Source of the DNA: an uncultured Erythrobacter sp.
GTDB taxonomy: Bacteria; Pseudomonadota; Alphaproteobacteria; Sphingomonadales; Sphingomonadaceae
Direction of reading: 5' to 3'
Assembly: GCF_947492365.1 (NCBI RefSeq)
Contig: NZ_CANLMB010000002.1
Coordinates: 558,001 to 622,000 of the forward strand
Length of the DNA stretch: 64,000 nt
The notes beneath the pieces are model-generated. The model was not told where the DNA came from. It searched no databases and worked only from the letters and a program-made list of their open reading frames with translations. Position 1 is the stretch's first letter, and each line of letters starts with the position of its first letter. Below, piece by piece: positions 10,469-54,862 of the stretch. The position numbers were made by a program, and so were the translations under genes.

Positions 10469-10476
10469 CCACCATC

Positions 10477-10499: not shown

Positions 10500-10512
10500 T
10501 CAAAGGTTTTGT

Positions 10513-37955: not shown

Positions 37956-38057
37956 CCACCTCCCCTTAGACCCCTCCCCTGCTCGTTCGGGTAGACCCTC
38001 TCTACTGGAGACCCTCCGTAAGGAAGCTGGTCAGTAGGATGAGGTTAGGGGAGGTGG
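37956..38057. repeat. Inverted repeat after trlF-like gene
   Basis: CCACCTCCCCT at 37956-37966 is perfectly complementary to AGGGGAGGTGG at 38047-38057. The left arm abuts the stop codon. The 80-bp spacing is long for a terminator. The right arm continues into GGTGGTGGAGG, also found near attL at about 33823-33836. Confidence 0.6.
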
Positions 38058-38177
38058 TGGAGGTAGGGGGTTCTCTTCCTAGGTGCAGGCCCGGGGCGGC
38101 TGGCAAGGCTCGCTGAGATGCCAATAGGGTGTGACCCGATAGGGGGTCTCTATATAGTAGCTACGAGTGGCAGAGAG

Positions 38178-38393: not shown

Positions 38394-38467
38394 TCGCCCG
38401 ATTGACACGATTGGAGAACATTGGTCTGTCTACTGTCCGTGTCATTAGAGGTTGAGGGCGAATTGTG

Positions 38468-38851
38468 ATGGATGAATTGAATGGCCGACAGGCAATCAAT
38501 CAAGCTGAGGCCACCGGGGCGCTCTTTCTCCCTGCCATCGTCGCTTGCGCGGCTGGAGGTTACAAGCTGGCCTCGCACCCTTGGCCCAGCACCAATGGCC
38601 AATTGCTGCTCATGCTCGGCGTTCTAACGCTGTTTGGGGCCTTTGGAGTGGGGTCTCGGCCGCGCCTTGCTTTGTTCGCAGTGCCGCTAGCGATATACAC
38701 CTTTATCATCATCGGCTGTCTAGCCCTCGGGTTGGCAATCTCTGAGGGTAGCGGATGGTGGACCATTGGAGAGGCAGCGTTTTGGGTCCTGTTCGGCTGG
38801 TATGTTTCCTTTAGGATTACACGCTCTCTAAAGACCGCACAGTCTACCTAG
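38468..38851 (+). CDS. Small membrane protein, unknown
   Basis: 127 residues with about four hydrophobic segments (about 18-34, 43-60, 66-90 and 93-114). No family recognised. Divergent from the XRE regulator; its last 4 bases overlap the end of the converging 392-residue gene. Element location and membrane character would suit an effector or immunity partner, but nothing in the sequence proves it. Confidence 0.6.
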   Translation: MDELNGRQAINQAEATGALFLPAIVACAAGGYKLASHPWPSTNGQLLLMLGVLTLFGAFGVGSRPRLALFAVPLAIYTFIIIGCLALGLAISEGSGWWTIGEAAFWVLFGWYVSFRITRSLKTAQST

Positions 38852-40026
38852 CCTTCTCGATTGCGCTTCCTTGCCAAGGCTCTTTCCATTGCCTCAATCT
38901 GCGGTTTCATTTCCTTGAATATCTGCTCTTTTTCTTCTGGGGTCATTTCGTCATGAGGGTTCGCGGCATCGTAGCGCCAGCCGGAAACCATCTGGTCGTA
39001 AATCTCGTGGATCGTAGTTTGAAGCGAGAGGGGCGGATAAGCGGCAAATTTCATCGACCCTTGTTTCTTTAACTCGTCCTCGTTCGCCGCATAGTATGAA
39101 GCTATCTCCCGGAGTCCCGGCCTTAGCTTCTCAATGTCGAAGTATCTCTGGTCGGACCGGAGAAAGAGCGGAGCCAGCTCATGGTGCAGCTTATCCGCTG
39201 ACACGAATATGCGGCAGAAGGGCAGGTAGAATAGATACTCTAAATCAATCAGATTTGTTGGCTTCTGACCGATCAAATTGAGTGCCACTGCATAACGCAA
39301 TGTAAGAGCAAGCCTTAGGCAGAAATGCAGATACGGCAGAAAGTGTTTTATGGGCGGGCGGCGGTATTTCACCCACATTTTTGCAACATGCTTCTTGCTC
39401 TTCGCGGGCTGCTCGAATTGGCTCAATCCGAATTTGAGTGTGCGAAACTGATAACCCGGAGCATCGAGGAACGTGTCTACGGCGGCGACCACCTGATCCA
39501 ACGTCTCAGGATAGAGGGCATCTCGCTTCCTCGAATGGGAGAAGATTCTAACCAACTGCTCAAGCGACTTGTCAGACTTTGCTCTTTTACGGAGCATTGC
39601 CCCTTGGGAACGTTCTGCATCATCGAATATCTGGTCGCTCCACCGTTTGAGTGCCCGTTCCTCATCACTCTCATCGACGACCGCCCCCAATTTACCTTCC
39701 ACGTCAAAGAAGGTCTCTGCCGCAACAACCGGGTGCCCCTTCATCTCGACGGGATTCCCCAATACCTCGCCATCAATTAGGGCTTGGAATGACATCTGAA
39801 GATAGTTCCCGAGACCATCAGAAGCGCGGGCGGCTAGCGCAGCTACAGCAGACTCAGGCGTGCCTCGCCTCGGCTTTTTCGCAATGTTGCCTAGAACTTC
39901 TCGAACGTAAACGGGAGTGACGAGGGTGATGAAGAAGTGAACGAGCCACCTTGCCTCGTCCTTCGACAGCCTCTGCATTGCTGACTTGTCATAGAGAAGA
40001 GGAGGGCCGTGAGTCATTGAACGCAT
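38848..40026 (-). CDS. Unknown 392-residue cytoplasmic protein
   Basis: No signal peptide or membrane segment is convincing. The most distinctive stretch is Leu-Glu-Tyr-Leu-Phe-Tyr-Leu-Pro-Phe-Cys-Arg-Ile-Phe-Val-Ser (about 255-270) followed by Ala-Asp-Lys-Leu-His-His, resembling the strand and helix after the active-site region of some PIN-like proteins, but the acidic set cannot be confirmed by eye. The C-terminus is charged (Glu/Lys/Arg). It lies just downstream of the integrase gene on the same strand (51-bp gap). Function unknown. Confidence 0.6.
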   Translation of the reverse strand: MRSMTHGPPLLYDKSAMQRLSKDEARWLVHFFITLVTPVYVREVLGNIAKKPRRGTPESAVAALAARASDGLGNYLQMSFQALIDGEVLGNPVEMKGHPVVAAETFFDVEGKLGAVVDESDEERALKRWSDQIFDDAERSQGAMLRKRAKSDKSLEQLVRIFSHSRKRDALYPETLDQVVAAVDTFLDAPGYQFRTLKFGLSQFEQPAKSKKHVAKMWVKYRRPPIKHFLPYLHFCLRLALTLRYAVALNLIGQKPTNLIDLEYLFYLPFCRIFVSADKLHHELAPLFLRSDQRYFDIEKLRPGLREIASYYAANEDELKKQGSMKFAAYPPLSLQTTIHEIYDQMVSGWRYDAANPHDEMTPEEKEQIFKEMKPQIEAMERALARKRNREG

Positions 40027-40077
40027 CTGATAGCAAAGCGCAGCACGCGGAGAATAGCCCTATGCTCACAGATTATC

Positions 40078-41418
40078 TTAAAGCTCCGAGCTACCGACCA
40101 TTCGTTCCCCAGCCGCCTTGAGCCCCTCACGCTGTACTGAGTCCTCTAGGGTGGCATAGCGCGCCGTGGTGCTCGCCTGTGTATGTCCTAGCGCCTTTCC
40201 TACAGTGGCAAGCGTAGAGCCGCCCGAAAGCATAAAGCTGGCGAGGGTCCGCCTCAGATCGTGCAGCCTCACCCCTTCCAGCCCGGCTAGAGCTGTGATT
40301 GCCCTCCAAGGGTGTTTCAGGTCGGCGCGAGGGCCAATCCCAACAGGCTCTCCGGAGTTGATGTCTACGGGGGCCGACTTGCGGCGCTTCTCAGTGCTCC
40401 CCGGAAACAAATAGACCGAGTGGCTCTTGCGCTCGAACATCGCCTTGAGCGTCTCAAGCGCAGGCCCCTCAAGCTCAAGCCTATGGATGCGCTTCGTCTT
40501 GGTGTGGGCTGAGGGCTTCTGCCAAAGGCCCCGTTCTAAATCGAATTGAGACCACTCAGCTTTGAGCACCTCTTGAAGCCGCGCCCCGGTGAACAAAAGG
40601 AGGCGGATTGCATCAGCGGCTTCCCTGTCGGTTGCGCTTCTCTCAGTCTCAGGGAGGGGCTTGGTCTTGTGCTCGACCGTCTCAGGGTCATCATCAGGGG
40701 AGACGGGTCTAAGGCCCGCAGCGTAGTCCTCACAGGCCCGCAGCAGCCGCTTCACCTCGCCTTCGCTAAGGTTCTGCCATCGCTGGTCCTCAGGGAACTT
40801 GCGAACGCCCCTACACGGATTGTCATTCCTCCACCCCCGCTCAATCGCCAGCGAGAACAACTTGCTCAGCAGTGCGAGGAGGCGGTTGGCCTGATAGACC
40901 CCCTTGGTCCCTCTTGCGATGCCAGCGGCCCTTGTGTCCCCGTGCAGCTTCCGAATGTCGGTGATGGTCACCGCCTCCACCTTCTTCGATCCAAGTGCTT
41001 CAATGGCTATGCGGGAGAGCTGGCGCGCATGGCGGATAGTCGACGATCTAAGGGCCTGTGAGGGCGCATAATCCTCTAGGTAGACCTTGGAGAGGCTCTC
41101 AACCGTTGGGGCGTTCTTAGCGGCTTCCTCAGCCTCCCTCGCTGCCCTCTCCTCGACATGGGGGTCTACACCTGCCCTCACCTTCCGCAGCACTTCGCGG
41201 GCCATATCGCGGGCCTCTTGAACGGTGAATGTGGGGAACGCGCCGAGCGCCTTCATGCTGGACCGCCCGTGGATACGATAGGAGGCAACAAAGCGCCGGG
41301 TCCCGCTTTTGGAGACCACAAGGCGAAAGCCCCTCACCTCGCTGTCCGAGATGGTCTGACCGGGCTGAGCAGCTTCCACCACGCTCTTGGTGAGCCGTGT
41401 GTCTGAGAGTTTGGGCAT
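40078..41418 (-). CDS. int: Tyrosine-type integrase with Arm-binding (DUF4102) domain
   Basis: 446 residues. N-terminal DUF4102-type Arm domain (about 8-90), core-binding helices (about 105-220) and catalytic domain with Arg280 (Thr-Gly-Ala-Arg), His-Asp-Leu-Arg-Arg-Thr, Leu-Gly-His and nucleophile Tyr421 (Thr-Ala-Arg-Tyr). It is the P4-like class that targets tRNA 3' ends, matching the tRNA-Lys duplication. Located about 200 bp from the distal repeat. Confidence 0.95.
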   Translation of the reverse strand: MPKLSDTRLTKSVVEAAQPGQTISDSEVRGFRLVVSKSGTRRFVASYRIHGRSSMKALGAFPTFTVQEARDMAREVLRKVRAGVDPHVEERAAREAEEAAKNAPTVESLSKVYLEDYAPSQALRSSTIRHARQLSRIAIEALGSKKVEAVTITDIRKLHGDTRAAGIARGTKGVYQANRLLALLSKLFSLAIERGWRNDNPCRGVRKFPEDQRWQNLSEGEVKRLLRACEDYAAGLRPVSPDDDPETVEHKTKPLPETERSATDREAADAIRLLLFTGARLQEVLKAEWSQFDLERGLWQKPSAHTKTKRIHRLELEGPALETLKAMFERKSHSVYLFPGSTEKRRKSAPVDINSGEPVGIGPRADLKHPWRAITALAGLEGVRLHDLRRTLASFMLSGGSTLATVGKALGHTQASTTARYATLEDSVQREGLKAAGERMVGSSEL

Positions 41419-41624
41419 TCAGGCCTCCTTGCCTTTACACCTCCCTCATAGCCGAAACCGGGCTAATCCGATAGATAGATAACCACACCGCAACCACAAA
41501 AGTCCCAGAACTGGCAGGGACAGACAGATGCTCAACCGTAGAGAAATTTGCTTATACCCCTGTAACTACGAGATATAATGAGGATTAACCGCATTCCTCA
41601 GAACTGCGCAGAATTAATGACGCG

Positions 41625-41675
41625 CTGACTTTTAATCAGTAGGTCGCTGGTTCGAACCCAGCAGGGCTCACCATC
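41625..41675 (+). repeat. attR direct repeat (tRNA-Lys 3' fragment)
   Basis: Exact 51-bp copy of 33726-33776; without the 5' half it cannot form a tRNA. Marks the right end of the element. The 200 bp between the integrase start and this site contain GCAACCAC at 41490-41497, also present near attL at 33854-33861, a possible integrase arm site. Confidence 0.93.
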
Positions 41676-41718: not shown

Positions 41719-44700
41719 TCATGCTTTGCTGCGCACAATCGGGAAGGCATCCAACGCCGTTTTGTCGAGAAGCAATTGCTTGACCATCTCATATCCTATT
41801 CGGCGATAGCTTTCCCATTGTGCCTCATCAAAGAACTGATCGGAGGTCTTGTGATTCGGGAAATCCGGTTCGGCCCTTTTGTAGGCGATGATGTCTGCGG
41901 GCAATTGATCGAACATCCGCGGAATTAGCCAGACGATCGAGGCTTGTTCTGGGCGATGGACGTTCTTGTCGGATGCGCGTTTCGTAATCTTTTTCGCCTT
42001 GAGAAGCAGGGCAAAGGCATTGCCGCCCGGCTGAGCAACCGTTTCGCGCCAATTGCTTTGCATGTTCAGGAAGCATCGGTGGGTGCGGCTTCGATATCGA
42101 CCGCAGAATTCAACCGTTTCTTCTACCGTCGCTTCACGCACTTCATAATTTTCATCAATCCGTGCGGTCCTGATGAAAGTCTCCAGATCAGCGAATTCAT
42201 AATTCGGATCGGCGCCATTGTCACAGACAAGAAGGGTCGCGCACCCCTTGTCCAGCAATGCCATTGCGCCGGTATTTTCCGAATGACCCGCATCAGACAG
42301 ATATATGCGCCGTTCGTTCAGCGGGAACCGGGCGCGCATTTCGTTGAGCAGATTGCCGTAAGTCGGCAGCCAACGCGTTAGCGGCTTTTCGTCCAGATTG
42401 GCTTTGATGTAGCAGTCCGGATCGCCCTCTGCCGAGCCATCCTTCGTCTGGATATTGAGCGGCTTGTGCCCGCGATCCCACCAATATCCAAGCCGCACAT
42501 TGGCAAAGCTCATCGCCAGGGCGCCTCCCATCGTGGTGCGCCGACCCATGCCCGATGACGCCGCTGCGCCGGAGATTGCGCAAAGCTGGCCCGCGGTCAG
42601 CCTTTCGGCGTCGTTAAGCTCTTTCGCCCAGGAGTTGCTGGCCCCTTGAATGGTCAATCCGTCATGTTCGAAAGTCGCTCGCCGGCTTTTGCGATCGCGC
42701 GCTACCAGGCTGCTGTCGGAAACGGTATCGTTGATTGTCACATTCAGCAGGTGAAAGGGGGCGGGCAGACTCGCTCTAAAATAGGAATACGCATCGATGT
42801 GGTCATGCCGCCTATCCAGTTGGTCGGACCGATCCTGATTCCAGTCCAGACGCTGGACATTGGTCGCACCAAGATATGCTCGGGTCAGCCGGGCAGCATA
42901 GAATGTGTGGAGCGATAGCATGTTGGCCAGACTGCCCGACATGCCAAGTACTGCAGTCGTTCCTATGACTGCCAATCCAAAAACTGCAGCGTTGCTGTAA
43001 TCCAACGGGCCCCACGGCCCGACTTTCCAAATTGCCAGATGCACGAGCAATGCGGCTGTGATCGCACTCACACTGAACAGGAAAGCACCGGCAACCAGGG
43101 AGGTCAGTGAGACGCTTTTACGAAAGAACCCGACGATCGCGTTTTGGCTGCCACCATACATTTCCGGTATTTTTTTGATGAGGAAGGCACCGATCGGCTG
43201 CAGGATGACCACCATAATTCCTGACACCAGGGTCGCTTCGGTTGCTCCGGACACATTGGATCCCTGCAACCGAATATCTGCATGCAGATACATCGCAATC
43301 GTATCGACAATGGCAAGATAGGCGAGAACGAGGAAATACAGATTGAAATTGCTCTGCGTCACGAGCAGCCAGCGCCGCAGTCGCTGGGCCATGTTTGCCG
43401 CATCTTTCAGATATCCGATCCGCCACGCGCCCCACACCAGAAAGACGCAGCCTGCAGCCAATGCGAGCCAGAGCGGGCCAAACAGAAGCAATCCCAAGTC
43501 TTGCGAACCAACAATAGTTTGGGCGAGGTCGAGGCCCGTTGACGGGAAATCAAGCGAGATAGCAGCGGCCAGGAATCCACCAAACAGGATCGCAAGAGTT
43601 GCCAGTACCGACCGGAAAAGCGCCAGGTCGATCCTTTGATTGGTGCTGTGGCCGGACAGCGGATTGTACGGGATCTTGTGCGCGATAAAATAAGCCGCGG
43701 CCACACTGAGCGAGAGGAACGCAAACAGGCCGGCGAATAGCGCGATCTGGCTGATTTGCAGGTCGGCTCCACCCCATTCAAGCTTCATCCAGCCGGAGAG
43801 TTGCTGCTCCATTGACTGGTCGACGCCATAGAGTGCCATCTGGATCAGAAATTGAATGCTCGCAAAAGCCAATCCGATGGCGAGCATCAGCGTGAGCCAG
43901 TTGCGGGCTACATAGCTTAGGCCGCTTAGCCAGTCTGCGGCTCCGCCCGGGGCCAGGTAACGTCCATGTTCGCGAAGCCAATATATCGGGTGGCGCAGGA
44001 ATTCGGGCGCCAATGGTCCTTCCACCAGACCATTCGCGGGCACCGCCCGGTCGCCTGGAGCGCTGGTGAGAACTTCGTTGGCGAATTTGAACCGATGACT
44101 GCGTGGGATCAGTTTTGTGTCCTGATGGGCCAGTTCTGCCGCATCGACGGCCGCCATCAGCCGGCCGATGGCTCGCTGCGTTTCCTTGTGCTCTGCTGCG
44201 GCATTGCCAAGGCTGGCGCTTTTCCCGTCAATTGCGGCATCAAGTGCTGCACGTTCGGCCTGATCAGCTGCAAGGACAACTTGTGCAAACATGCTCTCGG
44301 CATTGTCGCACAATTCATCAAACGACAATTCATCCGTTTTATCGCTTTCGGGCGTCTGGGCCTGCCCTGCAGCTTCGGGCTCATCCTCCTCCGATTTCGA
44401 GCGCCCGCTCCACAATGTCAAAGCGGCCCGTTTGGTGCGCAGCCACAAGCCGTAAGCAGCCTTCTGAAGGCTTCGGCGCTCTGCGTATCTTGCCCGAGCC
44501 TTTTCCAGGCTTGCGTGAGCCGCTTCCTCAAGATCATTCGCCCGTGCTTCCATGTTGAAGCAACGGGCAATTCTCGTGTCGCGTTTTTCAGCGTGCGTTG
44601 CAGTGGTGCGGTGCCCTCTGACTGGTCCTGCCGATAGCGGCTCCCGCTCACGATCTGGCAGAAAGAGGCTGCGCAGAAAGCAGGCGAAGTATCCGCCGCC

Positions 44701-44934
44701 TGACGAACTGGACATGAAGTCGAACCCGTAGAAGCGATCCCGCCGCGCCAGCGCCTGGACGACTCCCAGCGAAATGGTGGCGCTGCGGATGCCGCCTCCG
44801 GAAAAGGCAATGCCAACCGGCGGAGCATCGTGATCGGGATGCACAAGGCCAATATCGTCTTCACCCAACATCTTGCGGCGATGCTGGATGTAAGGATATT
44901 TCTGCAGCGGATCTTCCCTGGTGCCGTTACTCAT
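41719..44934 (-). CDS. Membrane-integral patatin-like phospholipase
   Basis: 1071 residues. N-terminal patatin elements: oxyanion loop Gly46-Gly-Gly-Ile-Arg and nucleophile Ser78 in Ser-Ser-Ser-Ser-Gly-Gly. A charged coiled-coil insertion (about 110-290) and about eight membrane helices (about 340-680) follow; the partner Asp881 lies in Tyr-Leu-Ser-Asp-Ala-Gly-His beyond them. So the catalytic dyad is split by a large membrane module, an unusual arrangement. It should release fatty acids from membrane lipids. ATG 44934 is favoured; a G9 tract lies between it and an upstream in-frame ATG (44958). Transcribed in the same direction as the heme peroxidase gene, 194 bp downstream of it. Confidence 0.85.
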   Translation of the reverse strand: MSNGTREDPLQKYPYIQHRRKMLGEDDIGLVHPDHDAPPVGIAFSGGGIRSATISLGVVQALARRDRFYGFDFMSSSSGGGYFACFLRSLFLPDREREPLSAGPVRGHRTTATHAEKRDTRIARCFNMEARANDLEEAAHASLEKARARYAERRSLQKAAYGLWLRTKRAALTLWSGRSKSEEDEPEAAGQAQTPESDKTDELSFDELCDNAESMFAQVVLAADQAERAALDAAIDGKSASLGNAAAEHKETQRAIGRLMAAVDAAELAHQDTKLIPRSHRFKFANEVLTSAPGDRAVPANGLVEGPLAPEFLRHPIYWLREHGRYLAPGGAADWLSGLSYVARNWLTLMLAIGLAFASIQFLIQMALYGVDQSMEQQLSGWMKLEWGGADLQISQIALFAGLFAFLSLSVAAAYFIAHKIPYNPLSGHSTNQRIDLALFRSVLATLAILFGGFLAAAISLDFPSTGLDLAQTIVGSQDLGLLLFGPLWLALAAGCVFLVWGAWRIGYLKDAANMAQRLRRWLLVTQSNFNLYFLVLAYLAIVDTIAMYLHADIRLQGSNVSGATEATLVSGIMVVILQPIGAFLIKKIPEMYGGSQNAIVGFFRKSVSLTSLVAGAFLFSVSAITAALLVHLAIWKVGPWGPLDYSNAAVFGLAVIGTTAVLGMSGSLANMLSLHTFYAARLTRAYLGATNVQRLDWNQDRSDQLDRRHDHIDAYSYFRASLPAPFHLLNVTINDTVSDSSLVARDRKSRRATFEHDGLTIQGASNSWAKELNDAERLTAGQLCAISGAAASSGMGRRTTMGGALAMSFANVRLGYWWDRGHKPLNIQTKDGSAEGDPDCYIKANLDEKPLTRWLPTYGNLLNEMRARFPLNERRIYLSDAGHSENTGAMALLDKGCATLLVCDNGADPNYEFADLETFIRTARIDENYEVREATVEETVEFCGRYRSRTHRCFLNMQSNWRETVAQPGGNAFALLLKAKKITKRASDKNVHRPEQASIVWLIPRMFDQLPADIIAYKRAEPDFPNHKTSDQFFDEAQWESYRRIGYEMVKQLLLDKTALDAFPIVRSKA

Positions 44935-45128
44935 TGCACGCCCCCCCCCATAGAGCATAATGGCGAATTGAAGTTCTTAACTATCTCTTTCAAATACAAA
45001 AATTACGAAAAATGATCTTTTGAAGGATCAAGAGGATCCAGTTCACCGCGACCCTTGATCAATTGGTGCAGCATGGCGCTACTGGCCGGTCGCTCCATTC
45101 TTCTGGGCCGGGTCCGCGAGACGATCGA

Positions 45129-48100
45129 CTAAGCCTGCCCGGCCGCAAACTCCTCGAAGATTTGAGGGATGAGCTGGTTGCGATAGAGCCCTTCAAATTC
45201 AGCTGGCCCGATGGCTCTTTTCTTGCCCGCCCGCTCGAGCATGCGGAAGAATGAACCCCATTGCTTTCTGGTCAGACTGTCGAGCGCGTCTTTCGCTTCG
45301 AGCATCTGGAGGAATTCCGCTTCTGGAATAAGGCCGTCCGGATGGGCCTTGGCCCTTTCGCCCAATTCGCCGAGATAGGATGCCAGCAGAGCTTCATCGA
45401 CCATGCCGTTCTCGTCGAAGACGCCGGTTCGCTTGGAGGGCCTGCGCAGTGCCATTTCGTCCATCGGAATGCCGCGCCCGAGCAACAGATTCTTGAGACC
45501 GCCAAATTTGAAGGTCGAGCCGATAGCGAGATAGAGCGCGCGCAGGCCGCTGCTTTCGATAATGCGCCACCCTTTCAGATTTTCCGAGAATCCAGCCCGG
45601 CCTGCATCGTCTGAGAGGTTGAACGGGACCAGATGCTTTTCAAGGTCGGTCAGGTTCAGCGCGACACCTTTGCGCTGTTTATCGCCATCATAGGCGCGCA
45701 ATGTGTTGACCTCGTCCTGCGTCAGTTTCCAGCCGCTGACGAAACCCGGATGCGCATTGGATTCATAGCCGGGCCAGGGCCAGCGTGTCTCTGACTGGAT
45801 CGCAGCTGCGGCCTGCAGCAATTCGGCCCGCGAAACATCTTGCGGATCTTCGAACAGGACATTGTGACCATAGACCCGGCCCGCGCCTTCGAAATCGGCG
45901 AGCACAAGCCCGTCGGTCACATCGACGATATAGGTCGCGCCGGAATGTTCGATCCGAAGCATGTAATTGGGAGCATCGCCGAAATGCTCCTCTTTCCACG
46001 CATCGCCTAGCCCGAAGTCCTGAAGGTTCTGCTGGCCCCAGACGATGATGCCATTGGTTTCGAGAGGGTGCTCTTCCGGATTGTCTTTGGGATTTGTTCC
46101 CGCATATTCGTAGGTATTGATGGTCTCACGCTGTTCGAGCCATTCGCGCAGTTCCGGGCAATGCAGATAAAGGAGCTTCTCCTTGTCGATTGCCTCGACC
46201 AGATTGATCGCAGTCCAACTCACCTCGTTGGGGCGCCATTTCTCGGTCAGATACGGGTTTTTGCGAATCCGGCTGGTGGCTTCCTGAACGAATGTCTGGA
46301 AGCCCTCATTGGTGATCGCCAGACCTTCGGGCTTATGTTCGTTGAGCGTCAGGCCGATTATGGCGTCGAGCGTGCTGATCCCCTTGGGGTAAAGGCGCTC
46401 GAGCTTGGCAATCTTTGCTTGCGCATCGGGGCTCGCCGGATTGAGGAACAGATGCTCCCACTTCTCGCTCGGCGGGATGTTGTGCGCCTTTTGATAGTCG
46501 GTCCATGACGGTGTGCCGCGCTGCCGGTCCTTGCGGATTTCCTGCTCCAGCATGTTCATGACACCTTCTTCGGTGGCCATGTCGCGGAAGAAATCGGCGG
46601 TGTTGCCCGCCGCTGGCGCGCCGAGCCGGGTGTTCATCATGTAATAATAGACCGCGCCGAGCCCTTCTTGCTGGATGAATTTGTGCCCATCCAATTCGCG
46701 CAGGTTCTTCATATTGACGGTGCGCGTTCCATCGCCCGAAGTCTCGCCGATCGCTGGGCACTTGAGCTCGTCGACCCAGATCTGGTGGCCAAAGCGATAG
46801 GCTTTGCTGAAGAAGTTGCCTTTGACCTCCGGCTTTGCCTTGTTGACCTTGCCTGCCGCGATACCGTGCGCAATCGGATCGGTGCCTTGTTCGGGGCGAT
46901 AGATCTTCTTGTCGAAATGGGGGAGCTTGCGCTCTGCCCGTCCGAAGAGATTGGCGTTCAGGCCGTTGACCACCTCTTCATTGGCGAACAGCGTGTGAGT
47001 CCAGGTGCCGGTGTGGATTTTGACATAGGTCATCGTCACGACGCGGCGGGCGATCTGGAAAATCTGGTTGTCCGACCAGTCGTATCGCTCCTTCAGGACC
47101 GAGGCGACCCAGTTGTGGTGACGGGCATAGAGAGTGTGTTCAGCCTCCAGCGGAGCGGTCATATTGCGCCCAAAGCCGGTCAGGATCTGGTCCTGAATGC
47201 GCCCGTCCTTACCCGTAGAAACCTTGCGCAGCGGCAGGAAAAGCCCGCCATTGCCCTCATCATCCATCCCTTCGAGAAAGATTTTACCATCGGGCACTTG
47301 CCTGCCATCGGGGTAAGAGCGGATTTCGGCCAAAGTCTCGATATCGCTGCCGTAGATGTGGCTCATGTCCCACCAGACGGTGGTGCCATGCATGCCTTCG
47401 CCGCCGGCTCTCATCGAGTTTGGCGCATCGGACCTGCTCCATTGATACTTCACCCCCAGGCGGGCCCACTCGCTCTCCGGGTCGATGGCAATGGCATGTT
47501 TGCGTTTGTTGTCAGGCGCGGTCTGCGCGACGTCGTGAACCAGTTGCTGCAAATGTGCTGCGGCGTGAAAACTGGCCGTTTTCGCCTCGATTGTGCGTCC
47601 ATTGCGATAGCCGAACTCGCGGGCGATCTCAGCCTCGCTCGGAAGGTCGGGATTGCCGGACTGGTCCTGTGGCCGGTAGCCTTCGGGCATACCGTGATCG
47701 ACAAATTCCTGCCCGACACGGCCTTCACCCGGTCCGAACATCGCGTCGACATGCGCGCCATCGGGGGTGAAGCCGGAGCCTGCCCAATCCGGCGGATCGC
47801 GCTCAGGCAGCTGACCGGGCCGATCCCCGCGCTCTCCATCGGGATTACGCTCGCGATTTTCCATCCAGGTGCGCGCAGCCCCTAGCGCTGCCAGCCGGAA
47901 AATCCCGATCTTTCGCTGCGTCCAGCGCCCCGCATTTCCGGGAGTAGCGCCGCTATTGGCCAATTCACCGATTGGGCCGAGCGCGAGCGACACAAGAGAA
48001 TCTTTGAAATTCCGGATCCGGTTGGCAAGTGACTTTGGCGGGATATAGTCGCCGGGCACCTTAAAGTCCGTGCACAAAACCCAGGCATGCGGGCTGTCCT

Positions 48101-48491
48101 TATATGCATCGGCAGGGTCTTTGGTGAGATATTCTGCGGTCAGGTTGTTGGGGCGCAGGATTCCCGATCCCGCTTCTCCATCAACCTTGTTCTGCGCAAT
48201 CTGGTCCGCCCAGCTTCGCGCAAATTCGTGATCAGGCTCTTTGTCGAGCGCGCGTTGCATCCATTCTGCCGCGAGTGTGAATTCACCGGTGTTGCGATAG
48301 GCATACGCTGCCAGCGCGTAATCTTCAGCCGAGGCACTGCCCGATTTATCGCGCTGTTCGTAGAGTTCGATTGCCTTGGCAAAATTCCCGGCATTCAAAT
48401 GCGCCAGAGGATCATCAGACGCCAGTTCAGGTTGCTGATTGTGTGCATTAGCAAATGGGCACGATCCGGTTGTCGCTGCTTCTTGAGTCAT
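45129..48491 (-). CDS. Large animal-type heme peroxidase (peroxidase-cyclooxygenase superfamily)
   Basis: 1120 residues. A TPR-like helical N-terminus (about 25-115) precedes an animal heme peroxidase domain. Distal His378 lies in Asp-Met-Ser-His-Ile-Tyr-Gly and proximal His569 in Tyr-Arg-Phe-Gly-His-Gln; the 191-residue spacing is close to that in cyclooxygenases and myeloperoxidase. Tyr565 is four residues before the proximal His, whereas fatty-acid dioxygenases have Tyr at minus three, so peroxidase versus dioxygenase chemistry is open. The C-terminal 250 residues contain an EF-hand-like acidic helix. ATG 48491 follows a GGGGGAAG site. No export signal seen. Confidence 0.85.
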   Translation of the reverse strand: MTQEAATTGSCPFANAHNQQPELASDDPLAHLNAGNFAKAIELYEQRDKSGSASAEDYALAAYAYRNTGEFTLAAEWMQRALDKEPDHEFARSWADQIAQNKVDGEAGSGILRPNNLTAEYLTKDPADAYKDSPHAWVLCTDFKVPGDYIPPKSLANRIRNFKDSLVSLALGPIGELANSGATPGNAGRWTQRKIGIFRLAALGAARTWMENRERNPDGERGDRPGQLPERDPPDWAGSGFTPDGAHVDAMFGPGEGRVGQEFVDHGMPEGYRPQDQSGNPDLPSEAEIAREFGYRNGRTIEAKTASFHAAAHLQQLVHDVAQTAPDNKRKHAIAIDPESEWARLGVKYQWSRSDAPNSMRAGGEGMHGTTVWWDMSHIYGSDIETLAEIRSYPDGRQVPDGKIFLEGMDDEGNGGLFLPLRKVSTGKDGRIQDQILTGFGRNMTAPLEAEHTLYARHHNWVASVLKERYDWSDNQIFQIARRVVTMTYVKIHTGTWTHTLFANEEVVNGLNANLFGRAERKLPHFDKKIYRPEQGTDPIAHGIAAGKVNKAKPEVKGNFFSKAYRFGHQIWVDELKCPAIGETSGDGTRTVNMKNLRELDGHKFIQQEGLGAVYYYMMNTRLGAPAAGNTADFFRDMATEEGVMNMLEQEIRKDRQRGTPSWTDYQKAHNIPPSEKWEHLFLNPASPDAQAKIAKLERLYPKGISTLDAIIGLTLNEHKPEGLAITNEGFQTFVQEATSRIRKNPYLTEKWRPNEVSWTAINLVEAIDKEKLLYLHCPELREWLEQRETINTYEYAGTNPKDNPEEHPLETNGIIVWGQQNLQDFGLGDAWKEEHFGDAPNYMLRIEHSGATYIVDVTDGLVLADFEGAGRVYGHNVLFEDPQDVSRAELLQAAAAIQSETRWPWPGYESNAHPGFVSGWKLTQDEVNTLRAYDGDKQRKGVALNLTDLEKHLVPFNLSDDAGRAGFSENLKGWRIIESSGLRALYLAIGSTFKFGGLKNLLLGRGIPMDEMALRRPSKRTGVFDENGMVDEALLASYLGELGERAKAHPDGLIPEAEFLQMLEAKDALDSLTRKQWGSFFRMLERAGKKRAIGPAEFEGLYRNQLIPQIFEEFAAGQA

Positions 48492-48771
48492 GCTCGCTTC
48501 CCCCAAAACATTCCAAATCAAAAATTCGGACTGGCCCGCGGCGAATTGCATCTTTGCAAACCCGCCGCAGATAATATTCATTGCGGCTGTGACTTTAGGC
48601 AAACTTGCTTGGAAAGCAAAGACAGATCGAGCGAAGTGGACTTCTAAATGGCCTTTACTGTTAGGGTTCCAGTTGCCTATGGTCTTTTTGGTTGATCTGA
48701 TTGAGCGGCCTGTTCTGAATGCAGAATGCGGCCACCGGCCCTGGAGATTGGGTCAAATGGGGGAGATGAGT

Positions 48772-49203
48772 ATGTCTTTAAATGCAGCAAAGATGCTGAC
48801 GATGTCACAGTCAGAACTTGATGATCTTTTTTCGAGCTGTGAGGCCGGTCCTATCCCAACCGGCGAAGCAAAGGGCACTCCGGTCTTCTTCCCCGGCTCA
48901 AGTTTTTCGGACGAGATCGCGCAGGTGATAAATTTCTTCGCCTGGCAGGGCAAAGTGTTTGATCCCGAAGGCGGCTATCTGCGCAACCAGATCCTGCCCT
49001 TCGGAATTCAGGCGATCATGGCCAAGGTGTACAAGCAGGAAAGCTGGCTCGACGGGAAGGAGTGCATAGTCCTCGACTATTCGGAAACGTCGATGGTTGC
49101 ACAATTGGTCCGTGATGAAATGCGCATGGTCGCTCCCGATGTCTATCTCGGCAAAGTCTATTGGGAAAAGACCCGGCTGATCGACTTCGTATTGGAGTTC
49201 TGA
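48772..49203 (+). CDS. Unknown small protein, lipocalin/DUF4334-like character
   Basis: 143 residues. It contains Trp-Gln-Gly-Lys-Val-Phe, Gln-Ala-Ile-Met-Ala-Lys-Val-Tyr, Trp-Leu-Asp-Gly-Lys-Glu-Cys-Ile and Leu-Gly-Lys-Val-Tyr-Trp, an alternating aromatic/hydrophobic pattern suggesting an antiparallel beta-barrel for lipids or porphyrin-like ligands. Family membership is uncertain. ATG 48772 has GGGGAG at 48759-48764; two ATGs just upstream are less well placed. Alone on the plus strand between heme enzyme genes. Confidence 0.6.
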   Translation: MSLNAAKMLTMSQSELDDLFSSCEAGPIPTGEAKGTPVFFPGSSFSDEIAQVINFFAWQGKVFDPEGGYLRNQILPFGIQAIMAKVYKQESWLDGKECIVLDYSETSMVAQLVRDEMRMVAPDVYLGKVYWEKTRLIDFVLEF

Positions 49204-49219
49204 CCGACTGTCCCGGCAG

Positions 49220-49648
49220 TCAGGTCTGGCGCTCTTCGGTCATGAGCCGATAGCAACGCATCAGCAGGAAGACGCCCGCAATATTGACCAATGGAAGCGG
49301 CGCGAGAACGAGCCAGCCGCTTGTCGTCAAGGGCTGCGCGCTCAGCATGTAGAACAGGTCAGTGAAGATATCCGAGAAGCGGATCCCGGCCATGATGACC
49401 AGCCAGATCGGATGTCTGCGCAGCAACAGCAGCGCCAGAGCCTGCGCGAGGGCGAAAGCCGTCCACTGCCCGGCGGCCCTGCGCAATAGAGCAACCTCCT
49501 GACCCTGCGGCGCAGTATCATGGAAGAACGCGAACCAGAGGTGCGGATCGCTCCATGCCAGGATGGAGATTACAACATCGAGCGCCAGTCCGCCCCACAG
49601 ATAGATGAGCGTGAGTTTCAGGACCCAATTGCCATCATCAAGCTTCAA
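49220..49648 (-). CDS. Four-helix membrane protein, unknown
   Basis: 142 residues with four hydrophobic segments (about 10-30, 58-76, 80-98 and 108-128). No family recognised. It starts within the stop of the catalase-fold gene (ATGA overlap), so it is coupled to it and may anchor or assist that enzyme. Confidence 0.65.
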   Translation of the reverse strand: MKLDDGNWVLKLTLIYLWGGLALDVVISILAWSDPHLWFAFFHDTAPQGQEVALLRRAAGQWTAFALAQALALLLLRRHPIWLVIMAGIRFSDIFTDLFYMLSAQPLTTSGWLVLAPLPLVNIAGVFLLMRCYRLMTEERQT

Positions 49649-50814
49649 CTAAAGGTTTCCTCGCCAGTTGGCTCAATATGATCGACGCCGTTATTGGCCT
49701 GGCGAAAGCGTGACAGTTCGTAATAGAGCTTGCGCCGCGCCCGATTGAGATTTCCTAGCGGCCTGTGCTCGGCAATGCTGTGCCAGGGATTGTAGGAAAG
49801 GTTGCGCGCGAACGCCATCTGGGCCGGGCTGTCAAAAACCTGCGCGGGGATCCGCAATGTGGCCACCGGCACGCGCGGCGATAGCTTTTCGGGCCAGAGT
49901 ATCCCGGCATGTTCTATCGGCATCCTGTGCGAGTCAGTCTGAAGCTGCACCGTCATGGCGAAGCACACTTCGTGCTTGCCCAGCGTCTTGGCCATATTCT
50001 CGCGCAGATAATGATCCGAAGGCCGTCCCGGCAGCCCTTCGACTTTCATGTCCACCTTGCCTTGCGGAAAGAATGCGTACTGCATCGCGGCGTCAGGGCC
50101 GAGCATATAGGGCACGCAGCTGTAATAGGCGGTCCCCAGCGGGTTGCCCTGCGTCTTGCTCCACAGGCCCTGCATCAACAGATCGAGGATATGCGGGCGC
50201 CGGCCCAGGAAATACCAGAGCGGCAATTCGCGTTTGCTCCAATATTGCAGATAGGCGTTTTCGCGCGTGTTGGGGGTGGTGAAGGTCGGGCAGCTTATTC
50301 CGGTGAAGTCCTGCGTGTGCTGCTCGTCCTCCATCAATTTGGGACCGGGGACATCCATCAACTTCACGCCGATGCTCAGCACGCCGACATCATCAATGTC
50401 AGGAGGGGTGTGCGGACCCGGGCCGCCAAGCCTGACCCACGCGGGAAATGAACGCGGATTTGCGAAGATGCCGTGCCTAAGGTGATCAGGCAGATCCGGG
50501 TGAACAACCAGCTCGCCGCGAACAACCCCGTGCGTCTTGGTATTGCCGCCGCGCTCCATCTCTTCAGGCGCAAAATCCTGGCTCATATGCGCGCGCATCC
50601 GCTCGATGATTGTTTCGAGCAGTTCCTCTTCGTCGGCGCTGATTGTTTCCTGCGCCAGAGCCAGTTTCTCGTTGCGCCGAAAAGCCATAGCGATTTTCTG
50701 GACAATTGCGGTGCCCGGCCGCTGAAAAACAGCATCAAGGAACGGGCGCATCCACGGGTCAATGCGCCGCTGGGCAAGCAGCAGGCCCTGTAGAAAATCG
50801 TGAAACCAGCGCAA
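49645..50814 (-). CDS. Catalase-fold heme protein, allene-oxide-synthase-like
   Basis: 389 residues, shorter than true catalases. The distal site is Lys-Thr94-His95-Gly-Val-Val. Catalases have Val before this His; coral allene oxide synthase has Thr, a change shown to suppress catalase activity. The proximal ligand is Tyr364 with Arg360 four residues earlier (Arg-Arg-Lys-Leu-Tyr-Tyr), matching the Arg-X3-Tyr pattern. Substrates in this family are fatty-acid hydroperoxides. Coupled to a membrane protein by an ATGA overlap and divergent from the next two genes. Confidence 0.85.
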   Translation of the reverse strand: MRWFHDFLQGLLLAQRRIDPWMRPFLDAVFQRPGTAIVQKIAMAFRRNEKLALAQETISADEEELLETIIERMRAHMSQDFAPEEMERGGNTKTHGVVRGELVVHPDLPDHLRHGIFANPRSFPAWVRLGGPGPHTPPDIDDVGVLSIGVKLMDVPGPKLMEDEQHTQDFTGISCPTFTTPNTRENAYLQYWSKRELPLWYFLGRRPHILDLLMQGLWSKTQGNPLGTAYYSCVPYMLGPDAAMQYAFFPQGKVDMKVEGLPGRPSDHYLRENMAKTLGKHEVCFAMTVQLQTDSHRMPIEHAGILWPEKLSPRVPVATLRIPAQVFDSPAQMAFARNLSYNPWHSIAEHRPLGNLNRARRKLYYELSRFRQANNGVDHIEPTGEETFS

Positions 50815-51024
50815 AGTTGCTCTCTCCCCCCAAAATCAGAAGCGAACGTCCCTTATACTTAAATCATTGATCTCAATTGTCATCAATAAAGCAGGTCCGA
50901 ATGGCTCACTTGCTATTCGGCCGACTTTGCGGAATACAGTAACGATAAGACAGCGGGTCAAATTAAGTTTCAAACTTCTGGAATGGTCATTGAAACCATA
51001 TCCATCTCCAATGAGCGACCTCTA
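50815..51024. promoter_or_regulatory. Divergent promoter region of heme-enzyme cluster
   Basis: 210 bp of AT-richer DNA between the catalase-fold gene (minus) and the unknown/DyP pair (plus). It must hold the promoters of both arms if they are co-regulated. No specific operator could be assigned. Confidence 0.4.
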
Positions 51025-52293
51025 ATGGCACGCAAGTCACTTCTGATCATTGCAGCTGAAATTGACGATGCGGCAGCTGTGCAGGTTAAAGCGCTCCTCG
51101 CTTCCATGACTCTTGCGCCCGGTCAGGCCGATCCTGCGAACCCGCTGATCCCGTTCGGCCAGATTGCCTCAATCCATTTCGCGCGGTTTGTCGTACTCGA
51201 AGATCCATCACTTGGGGACCGTGCCGGAATAACCGATCTGCCCGTCAGCGAGCCGACACGGCTGGCACTGATGGTCGATGGAGATGGCGCGGCCGGCGAT
51301 ATGCTGGAGCAACTGGTCGCTAGAGCCGCTCCTGGGCTGGCGCAGATCTTTGCCCATTGCGATCCCTCGGTCACGGCGCAGAATATCGGCGAATGGATGC
51401 ATCGGCACCGGATTCGCGCAGCTGCCCAATACGCCAATGCTCCGTCGCGAACTGCCCTGCAGGCCCGCGAAGAAGCCGCATTGCATGATGCATTGCTGAG
51501 TGTGCGGCTGGCGCATCCCGGCGCATCGCCCAAGGAGCTTTGGCCGCATCTAAAAGCCGCCGCAGCCTCGGTTGTGCTTAGCCCGCAAGTCCAGCCCTCA
51601 TTTGCCCAGCGGATAAAGAATTTCGCGCATATGCTGTCGGTGCCGGTGCTCGCAGTTGCTCTCCTGCCAGCCTTCTTGCTCGCTTTGCCAATCCTTATCT
51701 GGATGCTGCGCAAACGCGAAAAAGTGGACCCGGTCATCGCGCCTCGCCCGCTTAGGGCGCGCAACGCGATGCTGTCCGGGATTGAGGACCATGATGTCGC
51801 CAATCAATACAGCGCCATTGGCAGCCTTAAGCCGGGGCGATTTCGCAGATGGCTGACCATCGTCATCCTGTTCGTCATCAATTGGGGCAGCCAGCATATC
51901 TTTAGCCGAGGGCGACTGGCGCGGGTCAATACGATCCACTTCGCCAGCTGGACGTTTCTGGATGATAAGCGCCGCATCTTCTTCGCCAGCAATTATGACG
52001 GCAGCCGCGAGGCCTATAATGATGACTTCATCAACAAGGTCGCCTTCGGGCTGAACCTCTCATTCTCCAACGGACTGGGCTATCCACGCACCGATTGGCT
52101 GGTCAAAGGCGGCGCGCAGCACGAACAGGACTTCAAGTGGTATCTGTTTCATCACCAGATCCCGACCCAGCTCTGGTATAACGCCTTTCGCGGTCTGACC
52201 ACTTACGAGATGGCGCGAAACGCGCGGTTGCGCGCTGCAATCGAGCAAACGCCAAGCGGTGATGCGCTGGCGCGGCTGGTGGCGGAGATCTGA
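51025..52293 (+). CDS. Unknown membrane-associated protein of the heme-enzyme cluster
   Basis: 422 residues. An N-terminal globular domain (about 1-190, with Ile-Ile-Ala-Ala-Glu-Ile-Asp and Ile-His-Phe-Ala-Arg-Phe), one strong membrane helix (about 203-226), and a C-terminal domain with Trp-Thr-Phe-Leu-Asp, Ser-Asn-Tyr-Asp-Gly-Ser and Asp-Phe-Ile-Asn-Lys-Val-Ala. The first part resembles a ferredoxin-like fold repeated around peroxidases, but I cannot name a family. ATG 51025 (Met-Ala-Arg-Lys) preferred over 50983. Ends 4 bp before the DyP gene. Confidence 0.65.
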   Translation: MARKSLLIIAAEIDDAAAVQVKALLASMTLAPGQADPANPLIPFGQIASIHFARFVVLEDPSLGDRAGITDLPVSEPTRLALMVDGDGAAGDMLEQLVARAAPGLAQIFAHCDPSVTAQNIGEWMHRHRIRAAAQYANAPSRTALQAREEAALHDALLSVRLAHPGASPKELWPHLKAAAASVVLSPQVQPSFAQRIKNFAHMLSVPVLAVALLPAFLLALPILIWMLRKREKVDPVIAPRPLRARNAMLSGIEDHDVANQYSAIGSLKPGRFRRWLTIVILFVINWGSQHIFSRGRLARVNTIHFASWTFLDDKRRIFFASNYDGSREAYNDDFINKVAFGLNLSFSNGLGYPRTDWLVKGGAQHEQDFKWYLFHHQIPTQLWYNAFRGLTTYEMARNARLRAAIEQTPSGDALARLVAEI

Positions 52294-52297
52294 CAAG

Positions 52298-53710
52298 ATG
52301 ACCCCCGATTTCAACGATATTCAGGCGCTGGTGCGGGCAGGTTTCGGATCGCTCGACGGGGCCAGATATCTGCTCTTGCGGGTCGCTGACAACGCTGCTG
52401 CAAAAGCCTGGCTGGCGCAGGCCGAACCGACCCGCTCGAGCGATGTCGGAGGCGGCAATACACTCGATCGCGTCTTGCAGATCGCTTTCACAAGCGCGGG
52501 GCTGAGAGCGCTGGGTTTCGCAGAGGACGAACTGGAAAGCCTGGCACCCGAATTCCTCGACGGAATGGCGAGTGATGAAAGACGCTCGCACCGGCTGGGC
52601 GATGTCGGCGAGAGCGGCCCGGAAAACTGGCAGTGGGGCACGCAGGAGCGCGAGCCACATGTCCTCTTGATCTTGCTGGCCAAGGTTTCGCAGATTGAAG
52701 CATGGACGGATGACATCAGCCAAACCCTTCTCGCCAGCGGATTTTCGCTGGTCGCCGACTTTGCCAGCACCCTCACTCGCGACGAGAAAGGTGTTGCGCG
52801 CGAGCCGTTCGGTTTTGCCGACGGGCTATCCCAGCCCAAGGTTGATTGGGAAAGCAAGGACATCGCCAGCCCTGGCGCGGACCGCAACTATCGCAGGACA
52901 ATTGCGGCAGGCGAGGTCGTGCTGGGATATTCGAATGAATATCGCGCGATTGCGGGCGATCAGACCGGTCCCTTGACGCAGCAAAATGGTAGCTACCTGG
53001 TTTACCGCCAGCTGGAGCAGGATGTTTCCGGTTTCTGGCAATGGGCAGTGCAGGCAGCGGGGCGTGAAAATGCAATCGGGCTGGCAGAACGGATGGTGGG
53101 CAGAGGCATTGACGGCGAGCCGCTGCCGGGCCTTGAAGCGGCTGATGCGTCAGCCGACTTTCTGTTTGATGCCGACCCGCACGGTCAAGTTTGCCCGTTT
53201 GGCGCGCATATCCGGCGGGCCAATCCGCGGATCGGTGACAATCCGATTCCGCAGCGCGGGTTCTTGCGCGATTTCCTCTCCTTCTTAGGCCTCTCGGGCA
53301 AGGCCAGCGGCGATGCGGTCGCCAGCGCCCGCTTTCACCGGATTTTGCGGCGCGGGAGGCCCTATGGCGAGATCGCGTCACCCGAAGAGGCGATGGGCGA
53401 TGGCGGCGGTCATGGCGCAGCGGGGTTACACTTCATGTGCCTCAATGCCAGTCTGGCGCGCCAGTTCGAATTTGTGCAGGGAGCGTGGCTTGAGAGCCCG
53501 ACATTCGGCGGCCTTTCGCAGGAAAGCGATCCGCTGGTTGGATCGCGCTGCCCGTTTCCCGATGACCGCCGGACTGACCTTTTTCGCTATTACGACAAGG
53601 AAGGGACGCCGCGCATTGCAGGAGACATTCCCCGCTTCGTCAAAGTCCTTGGCGGTGCGTATTTCTTCCTGCCCGGCATTGCGGGATTGAGGTCAATTGC
53701 TGCGCGTTAG
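52298..53710 (+). CDS. DyP-type peroxidase
   Basis: 470 residues. Dye-decolourising peroxidase with Gly-Phe-Ala-Asp175-Gly-Leu-Ser-Gln-Pro, the distal acid motif, and proximal His304 in Gly-Ala-His304-Ile-Arg-Arg-Ala-Asn-Pro-Arg. It oxidises substrates with H2O2 or organic hydroperoxides. No Tat or Sec signal, so cytoplasmic or membrane-tethered through its partner. ATG 52298 lies 4 bp after the preceding stop; the longer frame start at 52259 lies inside that gene and is rejected. Confidence 0.93.
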   Translation: MTPDFNDIQALVRAGFGSLDGARYLLLRVADNAAAKAWLAQAEPTRSSDVGGGNTLDRVLQIAFTSAGLRALGFAEDELESLAPEFLDGMASDERRSHRLGDVGESGPENWQWGTQEREPHVLLILLAKVSQIEAWTDDISQTLLASGFSLVADFASTLTRDEKGVAREPFGFADGLSQPKVDWESKDIASPGADRNYRRTIAAGEVVLGYSNEYRAIAGDQTGPLTQQNGSYLVYRQLEQDVSGFWQWAVQAAGRENAIGLAERMVGRGIDGEPLPGLEAADASADFLFDADPHGQVCPFGAHIRRANPRIGDNPIPQRGFLRDFLSFLGLSGKASGDAVASARFHRILRRGRPYGEIASPEEAMGDGGGHGAAGLHFMCLNASLARQFEFVQGAWLESPTFGGLSQESDPLVGSRCPFPDDRRTDLFRYYDKEGTPRIAGDIPRFVKVLGGAYFFLPGIAGLRSIAAR

Positions 53711-53728: not shown

Positions 53729-54862
53729 TTATTCCTCTTCAAGAAACCGCGCGATGTAGTCGTCGGAATAATCGACTTCCAGCTCCATCCAGATCGGCAG
53801 GTGGTCGGACATTTCGAAGGTTGTCCACCCGCCATAGCTCTTGGCGAAGTCCTTGTAGGGCTCCTTCGGCTTTTCCGCCGTGGTGCGCTGGAGATCGCAG
53901 ATCGGTTTGTAATGCGCGAGCATTTCGGCATGTGAGAGGCGGCGGGTGAGGCCTTGTTTTTCCTCATCCGGCAGCGCGTCATATTCGGCCTGCGGGTAGG
54001 GGCCAAAGACCGATTTGCGCCAGTCAAAGCTCCCCCGCCGGATCAGGCGGGTCTTGTTCTCCGCCTTGCCCTTCACCGTATAGGCCATCTGGTCGTAATG
54101 CTTGTCGCCCTTCAGATTGGTCGCGCCGAACAAGGGCACTTCCATTTTGCTGTCGAGCAGCGCCTGCATGATCGGGCCGTTCTCCTTCTCGATATTCATA
54201 TCGCCGAGCAGGATGTAAACTTGGTCTTCTTTCTTCGCGCGCTTGACCAGAATTTCGGAAAGTTCGCGGATTTCGTCCTTGCGCATCTGCTTTTTCTGCG
54301 CGTCGGTCCCGCCGAAAAAGATGTGCGTTGAGCACAGGCAGAAGCGGAACCAGCCAGCCTGAAACGAGGCGAAAAAGGGTGAGCGGGCGAATTGCGCCGC
54401 ATTGCCGAGATCGTCGGGATCGAGCACGATTTCACCCACCAGATTGCGGAAGAAGACGCGGTTTGTGTTGTAGACGAAGGCCATCCGCTCGCCATTGCCG
54501 CCCTTGTGGGTCGAGACGTCGGAGGCGAAGTAATCCCAGTTGGGACCCAGCAGTTTGACCAGCCGCTTGAGCGGTTCGAGATCGCCTTTGATCTCCTGGA
54601 TTGCACAAATGTCGAAGGCACCGATGATTTCGGCGATGTAGTGATAGCTTTCATCAAGCCTTGGCAGCCCGTCATCAAAGGCGCGGATATTCCAGCTTCC
54701 GACGATCAGTGAGCGCGGCTTGCGGCGGCTCACAATCGCCTCATCAAGATCCTTGCGCAGATTGAGAAGCCGTCCTGCGATCCATTGCTTCTTGCCCGGA
54801 TAATGCGGAAAATCAGCGTCGCCAGTGTGATCGTAGGTTTTGAGCCCGTGATAGAACGGCAT
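53729..54862 (-). CDS. Endonuclease/exonuclease/phosphatase (EEP) family protein
   Basis: 377 residues. Motifs Ser-Trp-Asn-Ile-Arg, Ile-Gln-Glu-Ile-Lys (metal Glu), Leu-Gly-Asp-Met-Asn-Ile and Ser-Asp-His-Leu-Pro-Ile (catalytic Asp-His) mark the DNase I-like fold. No signal peptide. Substrate may be a nucleic acid, phosphoinositide-like lipid or sphingolipid; not decidable. It converges on the DyP gene with an 18-bp gap. The N-terminal 65 residues form an extra segment before the fold. Confidence 0.85.
   Translation of the reverse strand: MPFYHGLKTYDHTGDADFPHYPGKKQWIAGRLLNLRKDLDEAIVSRRKPRSLIVGSWNIRAFDDGLPRLDESYHYIAEIIGAFDICAIQEIKGDLEPLKRLVKLLGPNWDYFASDVSTHKGGNGERMAFVYNTNRVFFRNLVGEIVLDPDDLGNAAQFARSPFFASFQAGWFRFCLCSTHIFFGGTDAQKKQMRKDEIRELSEILVKRAKKEDQVYILLGDMNIEKENGPIMQALLDSKMEVPLFGATNLKGDKHYDQMAYTVKGKAENKTRLIRRGSFDWRKSVFGPYPQAEYDALPDEEKQGLTRRLSHAEMLAHYKPICDLQRTTAEKPKEPYKDFAKSYGGWTTFEMSDHLPIWMELEVDYSDDYIARFLEEE

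Follow-up and report, generated by a model that had tools for sequence, protein, structure and literature searches.

A 64,000-nucleotide stretch of DNA from an uncultured Erythrobacter sp. (contig NZ_CANLMB010000002.1, positions 558,001 to 622,000; hereafter the window) carries a block of seven genes between 41.7 and 53.7 kb. These encode a patatin-like lipase (minus strand), an alpha-dioxygenase-like haem protein designated ADOX (minus), a small conserved protein designated K (plus), a small membrane protein designated MEM142 (minus), a catalase-fold haem protein (minus), an orphan protein designated UNK436 (plus), and a DyP-type peroxidase (DyP; plus) (Table 1). An initial annotation had read the block as an oxylipin-like gene cluster. 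Its inventory of a patatin, a haem peroxidase, a catalase-fold protein, a DyP, and three unknown proteins was confirmed by open reading frames (ORFs), profiles, and family alignments, and each ORF was supported as coding by codon scoring. The same scoring was used for gene calls (longest-ORF calling favoured antisense ORFs), except at the related locus L067, which it misjudged and where stop-to-stop ORFs were used. The two gene couplings noted earlier were also recovered: the MEM142 and catalase-fold genes overlap by 4 nt (49645/49648), and the UNK436 and DyP genes lie 4 nt apart (52293/52298). The divergent gap between the catalase-fold and UNK436 genes exists and is AT-rich, but its suggested role as a shared promoter was left without a sigma-70 consensus site, none being found within the gap. 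No description of the cluster was found in open-access papers.

Table 1. Coordinates of the seven-gene block, its insertion site and its flanks in the window, and of related fusion genes in other genomes.
Feature	Position	Strand	Basis
tRNA gene, anticodon region TTT (Lys), insertion site	33699-33771	+	Rfam tRNA, 75.5 bits
7.9 kb integrative element	33754-41673		exact 21-bp repeats 33754-33774 / 41653-41673
Patatin-like lipase, 1079 aa	41719-44958	-	motif alignment, hydropathy, plasmid homologues
ADOX, alpha-dioxygenase-like haem protein, N-terminal TPR	45129-48602	-	PF03098, PDB match, residues, tree
K, small conserved protein	48793-49203 (within initially annotated ORF 48490-49203)	+	adjoins UNK436 in family genomes
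MEM142, small membrane protein	49220-49648	-	ORF, hydropathy, L067 homologue
Catalase-fold haem protein	49645-50814	-	family profile against catalase-fold structures; axial Tyr and Arg; N91
AT-rich divergent intergenic gap, catalase-fold gene / UNK436	50815-51024		sequence
UNK436, two alpha+beta domains	51025-52293	+	AlphaFold model; DyP linkage of C-terminal domain
DyP-type peroxidase	52298-53710	+	TIGR01413, PDB DyPs, residues
Exo_endo_phos-family protein (PF03372), within same insertion; probably outside gene set	53729-54862	-	
Catalase-fold/alpha-dioxygenase fusions, Rhizobium and Phyllobacterium plasmids	L055 13423-16272; L063 7651-10479; L178 7660-10503; L184 7762-10605		

ADOX matched the An_peroxidase family in Pfam (PF03098, E 1e-42), with a weak TPR signal in its N-terminus (Pfam/NCBIfam); its true start probably lies downstream of 48602. 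The nearest PDB entry by sequence search was a plant alpha-dioxygenase (alpha-DOX; E 1e-24), and a profile search likewise placed alpha-DOX as the best structural relative (E 6e-116). The distal His, the proximal His, and the catalytic Tyr of OsaDOX (H157, H382, and Y379) are matched in the alignment by H349, H599, and Y595, respectively, in the 1150-aa form of ADOX. Also retained are the carboxylate-binding H311, T316, and R559 and the channel residues W315, F375, F549, F552, and A556 (alpha-DOX numbering). All 11 alpha-DOX residues examined were thus kept, whereas three bacterial controls of the MPO/COX type lacked most of them; the functional residues are those named in PMC8720084, where H311, T316, and R559 serve carboxylate binding and positioning. 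The catalytic Tyr was rejected as a dioxygenase diagnostic, and because an MPO-type homologue has this Tyr too, the carboxylate-binding residues were used instead. In a phylogenetic tree, ADOX fell on the alpha-DOX side as opposed to the COX/MPO-type side (support 92/95, long branches). The earlier proposal of a haem peroxidase or dioxygenase is supported to this extent: ADOX is best described from its residues as alpha-DOX-like, short of a proven alpha-DOX. No lipoxygenase domain was found among the cluster proteins with Pfam and NCBIfam.

The catalase-fold protein gave no direct Pfam match and was identified through its relatives. Searched against solved structures, its family profile matched 3e4w best (E 2.5e-14), followed by true catalases and coral allene oxide synthase (AOS). 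The axial Tyr and haem-binding Arg are invariant (R305 and Y309 of the aligned segment). At the distal His position, by contrast, Asn occurs in the window protein (Asn91), in eight of eight sphingomonad orthologues, and in a DyP-fused copy at locus L155. Asn91 sits within a conserved motif, ER[GA]GNTKT[HY]G, and the replaced position corresponds to the His in the MHAK motif of catalases; ordinary relatives retain this His, including those encoded in catalase-UNK436-DyP operons. In coral AOS, cleavage of the hydroperoxide is started by the equivalent distal His, H67 (PMC5617202). Because this catalytic residue is Asn across the cluster subfamily, the initial label of AOS-like is unsuitable in any mechanistic sense, and neither canonical catalase nor AOS chemistry is supported for the predicted protein. 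With the distal His lost, it would rather use non-canonical haem chemistry or binding. The family is not confined to such clusters: only one of 14 homologue-bearing genomes of the order, besides that of the window, has adjoining UNK436 and DyP genes. A scan of genome contigs with the catalase-fold sequence alone gave no matches.

The DyP was recognized by TIGR01413 (NCBIfam, E 2e-24) and by DyPs of known structure in the PDB (E 3e-27); the Asp of its GxxDG motif, the distal Arg, and the proximal His are all present, as they are in 88-89 of the 89 members of the family. In the AlphaFold model of UNK436 (predicted local distance difference test score, pLDDT, 86), a long hydrophobic helix connects two alpha+beta domains, and the best fold match was the ABM/SchA-like WhiE-ORFI (9lmn; E 7e-4, with a low TM-score). 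When one genome per species was scanned with the family of the UNK436 C-terminal domain, 376 relatives were returned; the best 80 loci, which alone were retained, are dominated by Mesorhizobium and non-independent, and include assemblies of Bacteroidetes, Gemmatimonas, and Myxococcales. The UNK436 C-terminal domain was accompanied by DyP in every one of the 80 kept loci, as a fusion in 62 and with DyP directly after it in 18. A P450 was present in 68 of the 80, mostly as a P450-UNK436-DyP fusion. UNK436 and DyP thus appear to form an obligate, membrane-anchored pair, a feature that the initial annotation did not contain, and neither did it contain the P450, GMC, and dihaem cytochrome partners seen in other genomes. 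The P450-UNK436-DyP fusions are ~1450 aa long and widespread in Mesorhizobium (among many others L076, L080-L085, and L087-L089, at about 7.8-12 kb), their P450 I-helix motifs vary too much to be interpreted, and in Bacteroidetes the P450, UNK436, and DyP are encoded by three separate consecutive genes. A P450 gene at 26.6 kb of the window was rejected as a member, as it lies outside the block.

Like the catalase-fold protein, the patatin had no direct Pfam match; it was recognized by family alignment and through a fused relative, a GMC-patatin protein, that Pfam does recognize. Its motifs SGGGIRSA (oxyanion loop, pattern GGGxR), SSSSGGG (nucleophile Ser, SxSGG), and LSDAGH (Asp, Dx[GA]H type) are intact in an alignment with seven relatives, and hydropathy revealed ~8 hydrophobic (membrane) segments at aa 353-682. 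Patatin homologues were found on plasmids; homologues of MEM142, a membrane protein by hydropathy with a homologue in L067, were not. The model of K is mostly beta and weak (pLDDT 65), and its weak matches to 4mve and to fatty-acid- or retinoid-binding proteins offer only a hint of possible lipid binding.

The neighbourhood survey that had been proposed as a check was run, and the gene set was found to recur in relatives, contrary to the outcome that would have refuted the initial reading and indicating that its co-location is more than chance. Genes for K, the catalase-fold protein, UNK436, and DyP are grouped in about ten Sphingomonadaceae. In eight loci of this family (L067-L074) the four are contiguous, with catalase-fold identities of 54-79%, and six of these loci additionally carry genes for a GMC oxidoreductase and a dihaem cytochrome c alongside; the dihaem cytochrome of the Novosphingobium clusters had no solved relative by sequence. 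In Novosphingobium profundi (L068) and in genome G749 (L187) this cluster also encodes ADOX, 73% identical to that of the window, and L155, which belongs to a genome outside the class, encodes K, the catalase-fold protein, an alpha-DOX, UNK436, and a DyP-catalase-fold fusion; the complete K/catalase-fold/ADOX/UNK436/DyP set is present in all three. These genes are rare: among 299 genomes of the family, full-length UNK436 was found in five, K in seven, and alpha-DOX in three at E below 1e-150 (five at E<=1e-40). K adjoins UNK436 in all five genomes with full-length UNK436 (four others and that of the window), and two of the three alpha-DOX genes at E below 1e-150 are located in this cluster. 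Of the other two K genes, that of genome G765 (L196 9830-14833) is found beside GMC and dihaem cytochrome genes with no UNK436, DyP, or catalase-fold gene nearby, and that of G731 lies beside UNK436 at a contig end.

Parts of the set are also joined in other bacteria. The catalase-fold protein and alpha-DOX form a single polypeptide in Phyllobacterium A18/5-2, R. phaseoli, Rhizobium NXC24, and R. jaguaris. A patatin gene lies within ~3 kb of this fusion in three of the four rhizobial records, separated from it by a gene for a thiamine pyrophosphate (TPP)-dependent enzyme (L178 5727-7484; L184 5874-7589); TPP is likewise required by the 2-hydroxyacyl-CoA lyase of alpha-oxidation. In Mesorhizobium onobrychidis a GMC-patatin fusion (L057 5656-10344) adjoins a large dihaem cytochrome c gene, and a plasmid of Calothrix PCC 6303 carries alpha-DOX, GMC, and patatin genes inside ~8 kb. 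On pNGR234a, genes for a catalase-fold protein, a RoxA-like dihaem cytochrome, and a patatin are neighbours. Cytochromes of this RoxA-like (rubber-oxygenase-type) kind accompany alpha-DOX or catalase-fold genes at L147 4838-10556, L063 10490-12148, and L032 10011-11801, with an old-yellow-enzyme-family gene in addition at L147. Finally, catalase-UNK436-DyP operons of Agrobacterium pusense and Sphingobium cloacae are flanked by genes for oleate hydratase, 3-hydroxyacyl-CoA dehydrogenase, and thioesterase; these plasmid cassettes have common protein accessions and were counted as one observation.

The cluster was horizontally acquired as cargo of a tRNA-Lys hotspot. The distance between HPPK and vut_1 is 231-291 bp in four same-genus genomes and ~21.5 kb in the window, with other gaps in other relatives, and the whole inserted ~21.4 kb (element and cluster) is absent from some relatives. 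Because this gap varies and the tRNA-Lys gene lies within it, the site has the look of a hotspot for insertions. Sixteen same-genus genomes yielded no catalase-fold relative, and DyP relatives, weak or partial only, occurred in four of 60. The left part of the site is filled by an integrative element encoding a tyrosine recombinase (40078-41418) and an AAA_21 (AbiEii-type) protein (36801-37952), the cluster occupying the right part; its integrase was rejected as the carrier of the cluster, since the att repeats end the element 46 bp before the patatin gene. The Exo_endo_phos gene downstream of the block was likewise rejected as a member of the set: it is not beside the cluster in L067-L074, and in G663 it adjoins vut_1 where the cluster is absent (L195 10325-11391, a relative that an in-frame TAG interrupts). 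Farther away, positions 8001-12000 of the window have a low G+C content (0.48 versus ~0.63 in the surroundings) and almost no called genes, and are possibly another insertion.

We lean modestly towards reading the block as a mobile lipid-oxygenation module with hydroperoxide processing. As we infer its substrate, product, order of steps, and purpose (which might be signalling, catabolism, or protection), fatty acids would be released from membrane lipid by the patatin, and ADOX would oxygenate a carboxylate lipid to a hydroperoxide (probably the 2-hydroperoxide), which the catalase-fold protein, acting non-canonically or by binding, and the membrane-anchored UNK436-DyP pair would then transform or reduce. 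Lipid oxygenation is the best reading because the block combines a lipase, a putative oxygenase of carboxylate lipids, a catalase-fold protein fused elsewhere to an oxygenase, and a peroxidase unit with a predicted membrane anchor. Of the oxylipin-like interpretation given initially, the part that rests on the alpha-DOX-like enzyme, the patatin motifs, the fusions, and the fatty-acid gene neighbours stands, whereas the AOS mechanism does not. Because parts of the set lie side by side, even fused, in many unrelated bacteria, they point to an undescribed bacterial lipid-oxidation pathway. Possible, albeit doubtful, is a broader version in which an alpha-dioxygenase feeds the distal-Asn catalase-fold protein in a widespread, modular, oxylipin-type pathway that also includes the obligate UNK436-DyP membrane module, is spread by islands and plasmids, and would be the bacterial counterpart of the coral AOS-lipoxygenase and fungal dioxygenase-P450 fusions.

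Several observations weigh against a lipid-oxygenation module. The Tyr and proximal His of ADOX are spaced as Y-R-F-G-H, one residue longer than Tyr-x-x-His, and it is this extra residue that keeps the name of ADOX at alpha-DOX-like; the longer spacing also occurs in L068 and in MPO-type proteins. ADOX sits on a long branch, the catalase-fold subfamily has the distal Asn, and the majority of UNK436-DyP units have a P450 partner and no alpha-DOX. The alpha-DOX genes of other Proteobacteria mostly have different neighbours, and a window-type patatin was seen with K-catalase-UNK436-DyP in no other genome.

Alternatively, the haem enzymes might be a tailoring or degradation set that oxidizes a hydrophobic substrate outside the fatty acids, whether a polyisoprenoid, a terpenoid, an aromatic, or a polyketide-like compound. 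The RoxA-like cytochromes found elsewhere with alpha-DOX or catalase-fold genes, the polyketide-related ABM/SchA-like fold match of UNK436, and the GMC and P450 partners are in line with this, but the carboxylate-binding His, Thr, and Arg kept in ADOX and the recurrent patatin and fatty-acid gene neighbours are not, and we regard such a substrate as unlikely. Protection from peroxides, in which the haem proteins would only scavenge H2O2 or membrane hydroperoxides while the patatin removes oxidized acyl chains, seems distinctly improbable: although the DyP catalytic residues are intact and several peroxidase-type haem families are co-located, loss of the distal His is the opposite of what scavenging needs, ADOX has oxygenase-type rather than MPO-type residues, and ordinary peroxide defence has no need of an alpha-DOX as rare as five in 299 family genomes. 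It is most improbable that the genes are fortuitous neighbours, unrelated cargo gathered at an insertion hotspot. The content of the tRNA-Lys hotspot is indeed variable and the window patatin has no counterpart beside K-catalase-UNK436-DyP; however, alpha-DOX and full-length UNK436 are rare in the family and yet share one cluster in two of three cases, L068 and L155 carry the set as well, fusions join several of the pairs, and chance is contradicted already for K, the catalase-fold protein, UNK436, DyP, and ADOX. An anti-phage defence role was considered and dropped, as the PADLOC models gave no match for eight proteins.

As signals, oxygenated fatty acids have been studied extensively in plants, animals, and fungi, but far less is known of them in bacteria. 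The lipid-oxygenation module proposed here is a concrete, recurrent, and testable gene set, whose enzymes are tied together by the catalase-alpha-DOX, GMC-patatin, and P450-UNK436-DyP fusions. It gives a context to a catalase-fold subfamily that has consistently lost its catalytic His and to the orphan UNK436 domain, which has no Pfam model and is a constant companion of DyP. The catalase-fold protein of pNGR234a, which we take to belong to the y4iL-like catalase family, is of the same family as the window protein but keeps the distal His that is Asn in the window subfamily; no described function of the y4iL-like family was found in the open-access literature. The window DyP has its domain and catalytic residues in common with DyP2 and Alr1585 (PDB 4g2c and 5c2i), and differs in being tied, apparently obligately, to the UNK436 domain and, in its family, often also to a P450.

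Among characterized oxygenases, the fatty-acid alpha-dioxygenases of plants (AthDOX1, OsaDOX) and cyanobacteria (CalDOX, LepDOX; PMC8720084) share with ADOX their fold family, both His residues, the Tyr, the carboxylate-binding His, Thr, and Arg, and the channel residues, and their relatives are likewise encoded beside patatin or GMC genes. ADOX is nonetheless divergent: its N-terminus carries a TPR, it is extended far at the C-terminus, and its Tyr and proximal His stand one residue farther apart. In the coral catalase-related AOS and hydroperoxide lyase (HPL), which occur as AOS-lipoxygenase and HPL-lipoxygenase fusions (PMC5617202), a catalase-fold haem domain with axial Tyr and Arg is similarly linked to a fatty-acid oxygenase, as it is in the catalase-lipoxygenase fusion of Acaryochloris, named in PMC11719350. 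In the window, however, the predicted oxygenase is a haem alpha-DOX instead of an iron lipoxygenase, the distal residue is Asn instead of His, and the genes are separate. The fungal dioxygenase-P450 fusions (linoleate diol and allene oxide synthases; PMC13049297) also pair a haem dioxygenase with a hydroperoxide-transforming haem enzyme, a likeness in idea only: the second enzyme here would be the catalase-fold protein or DyP, and the bacterial P450-UNK436-DyP fusion comes without a dioxygenase.

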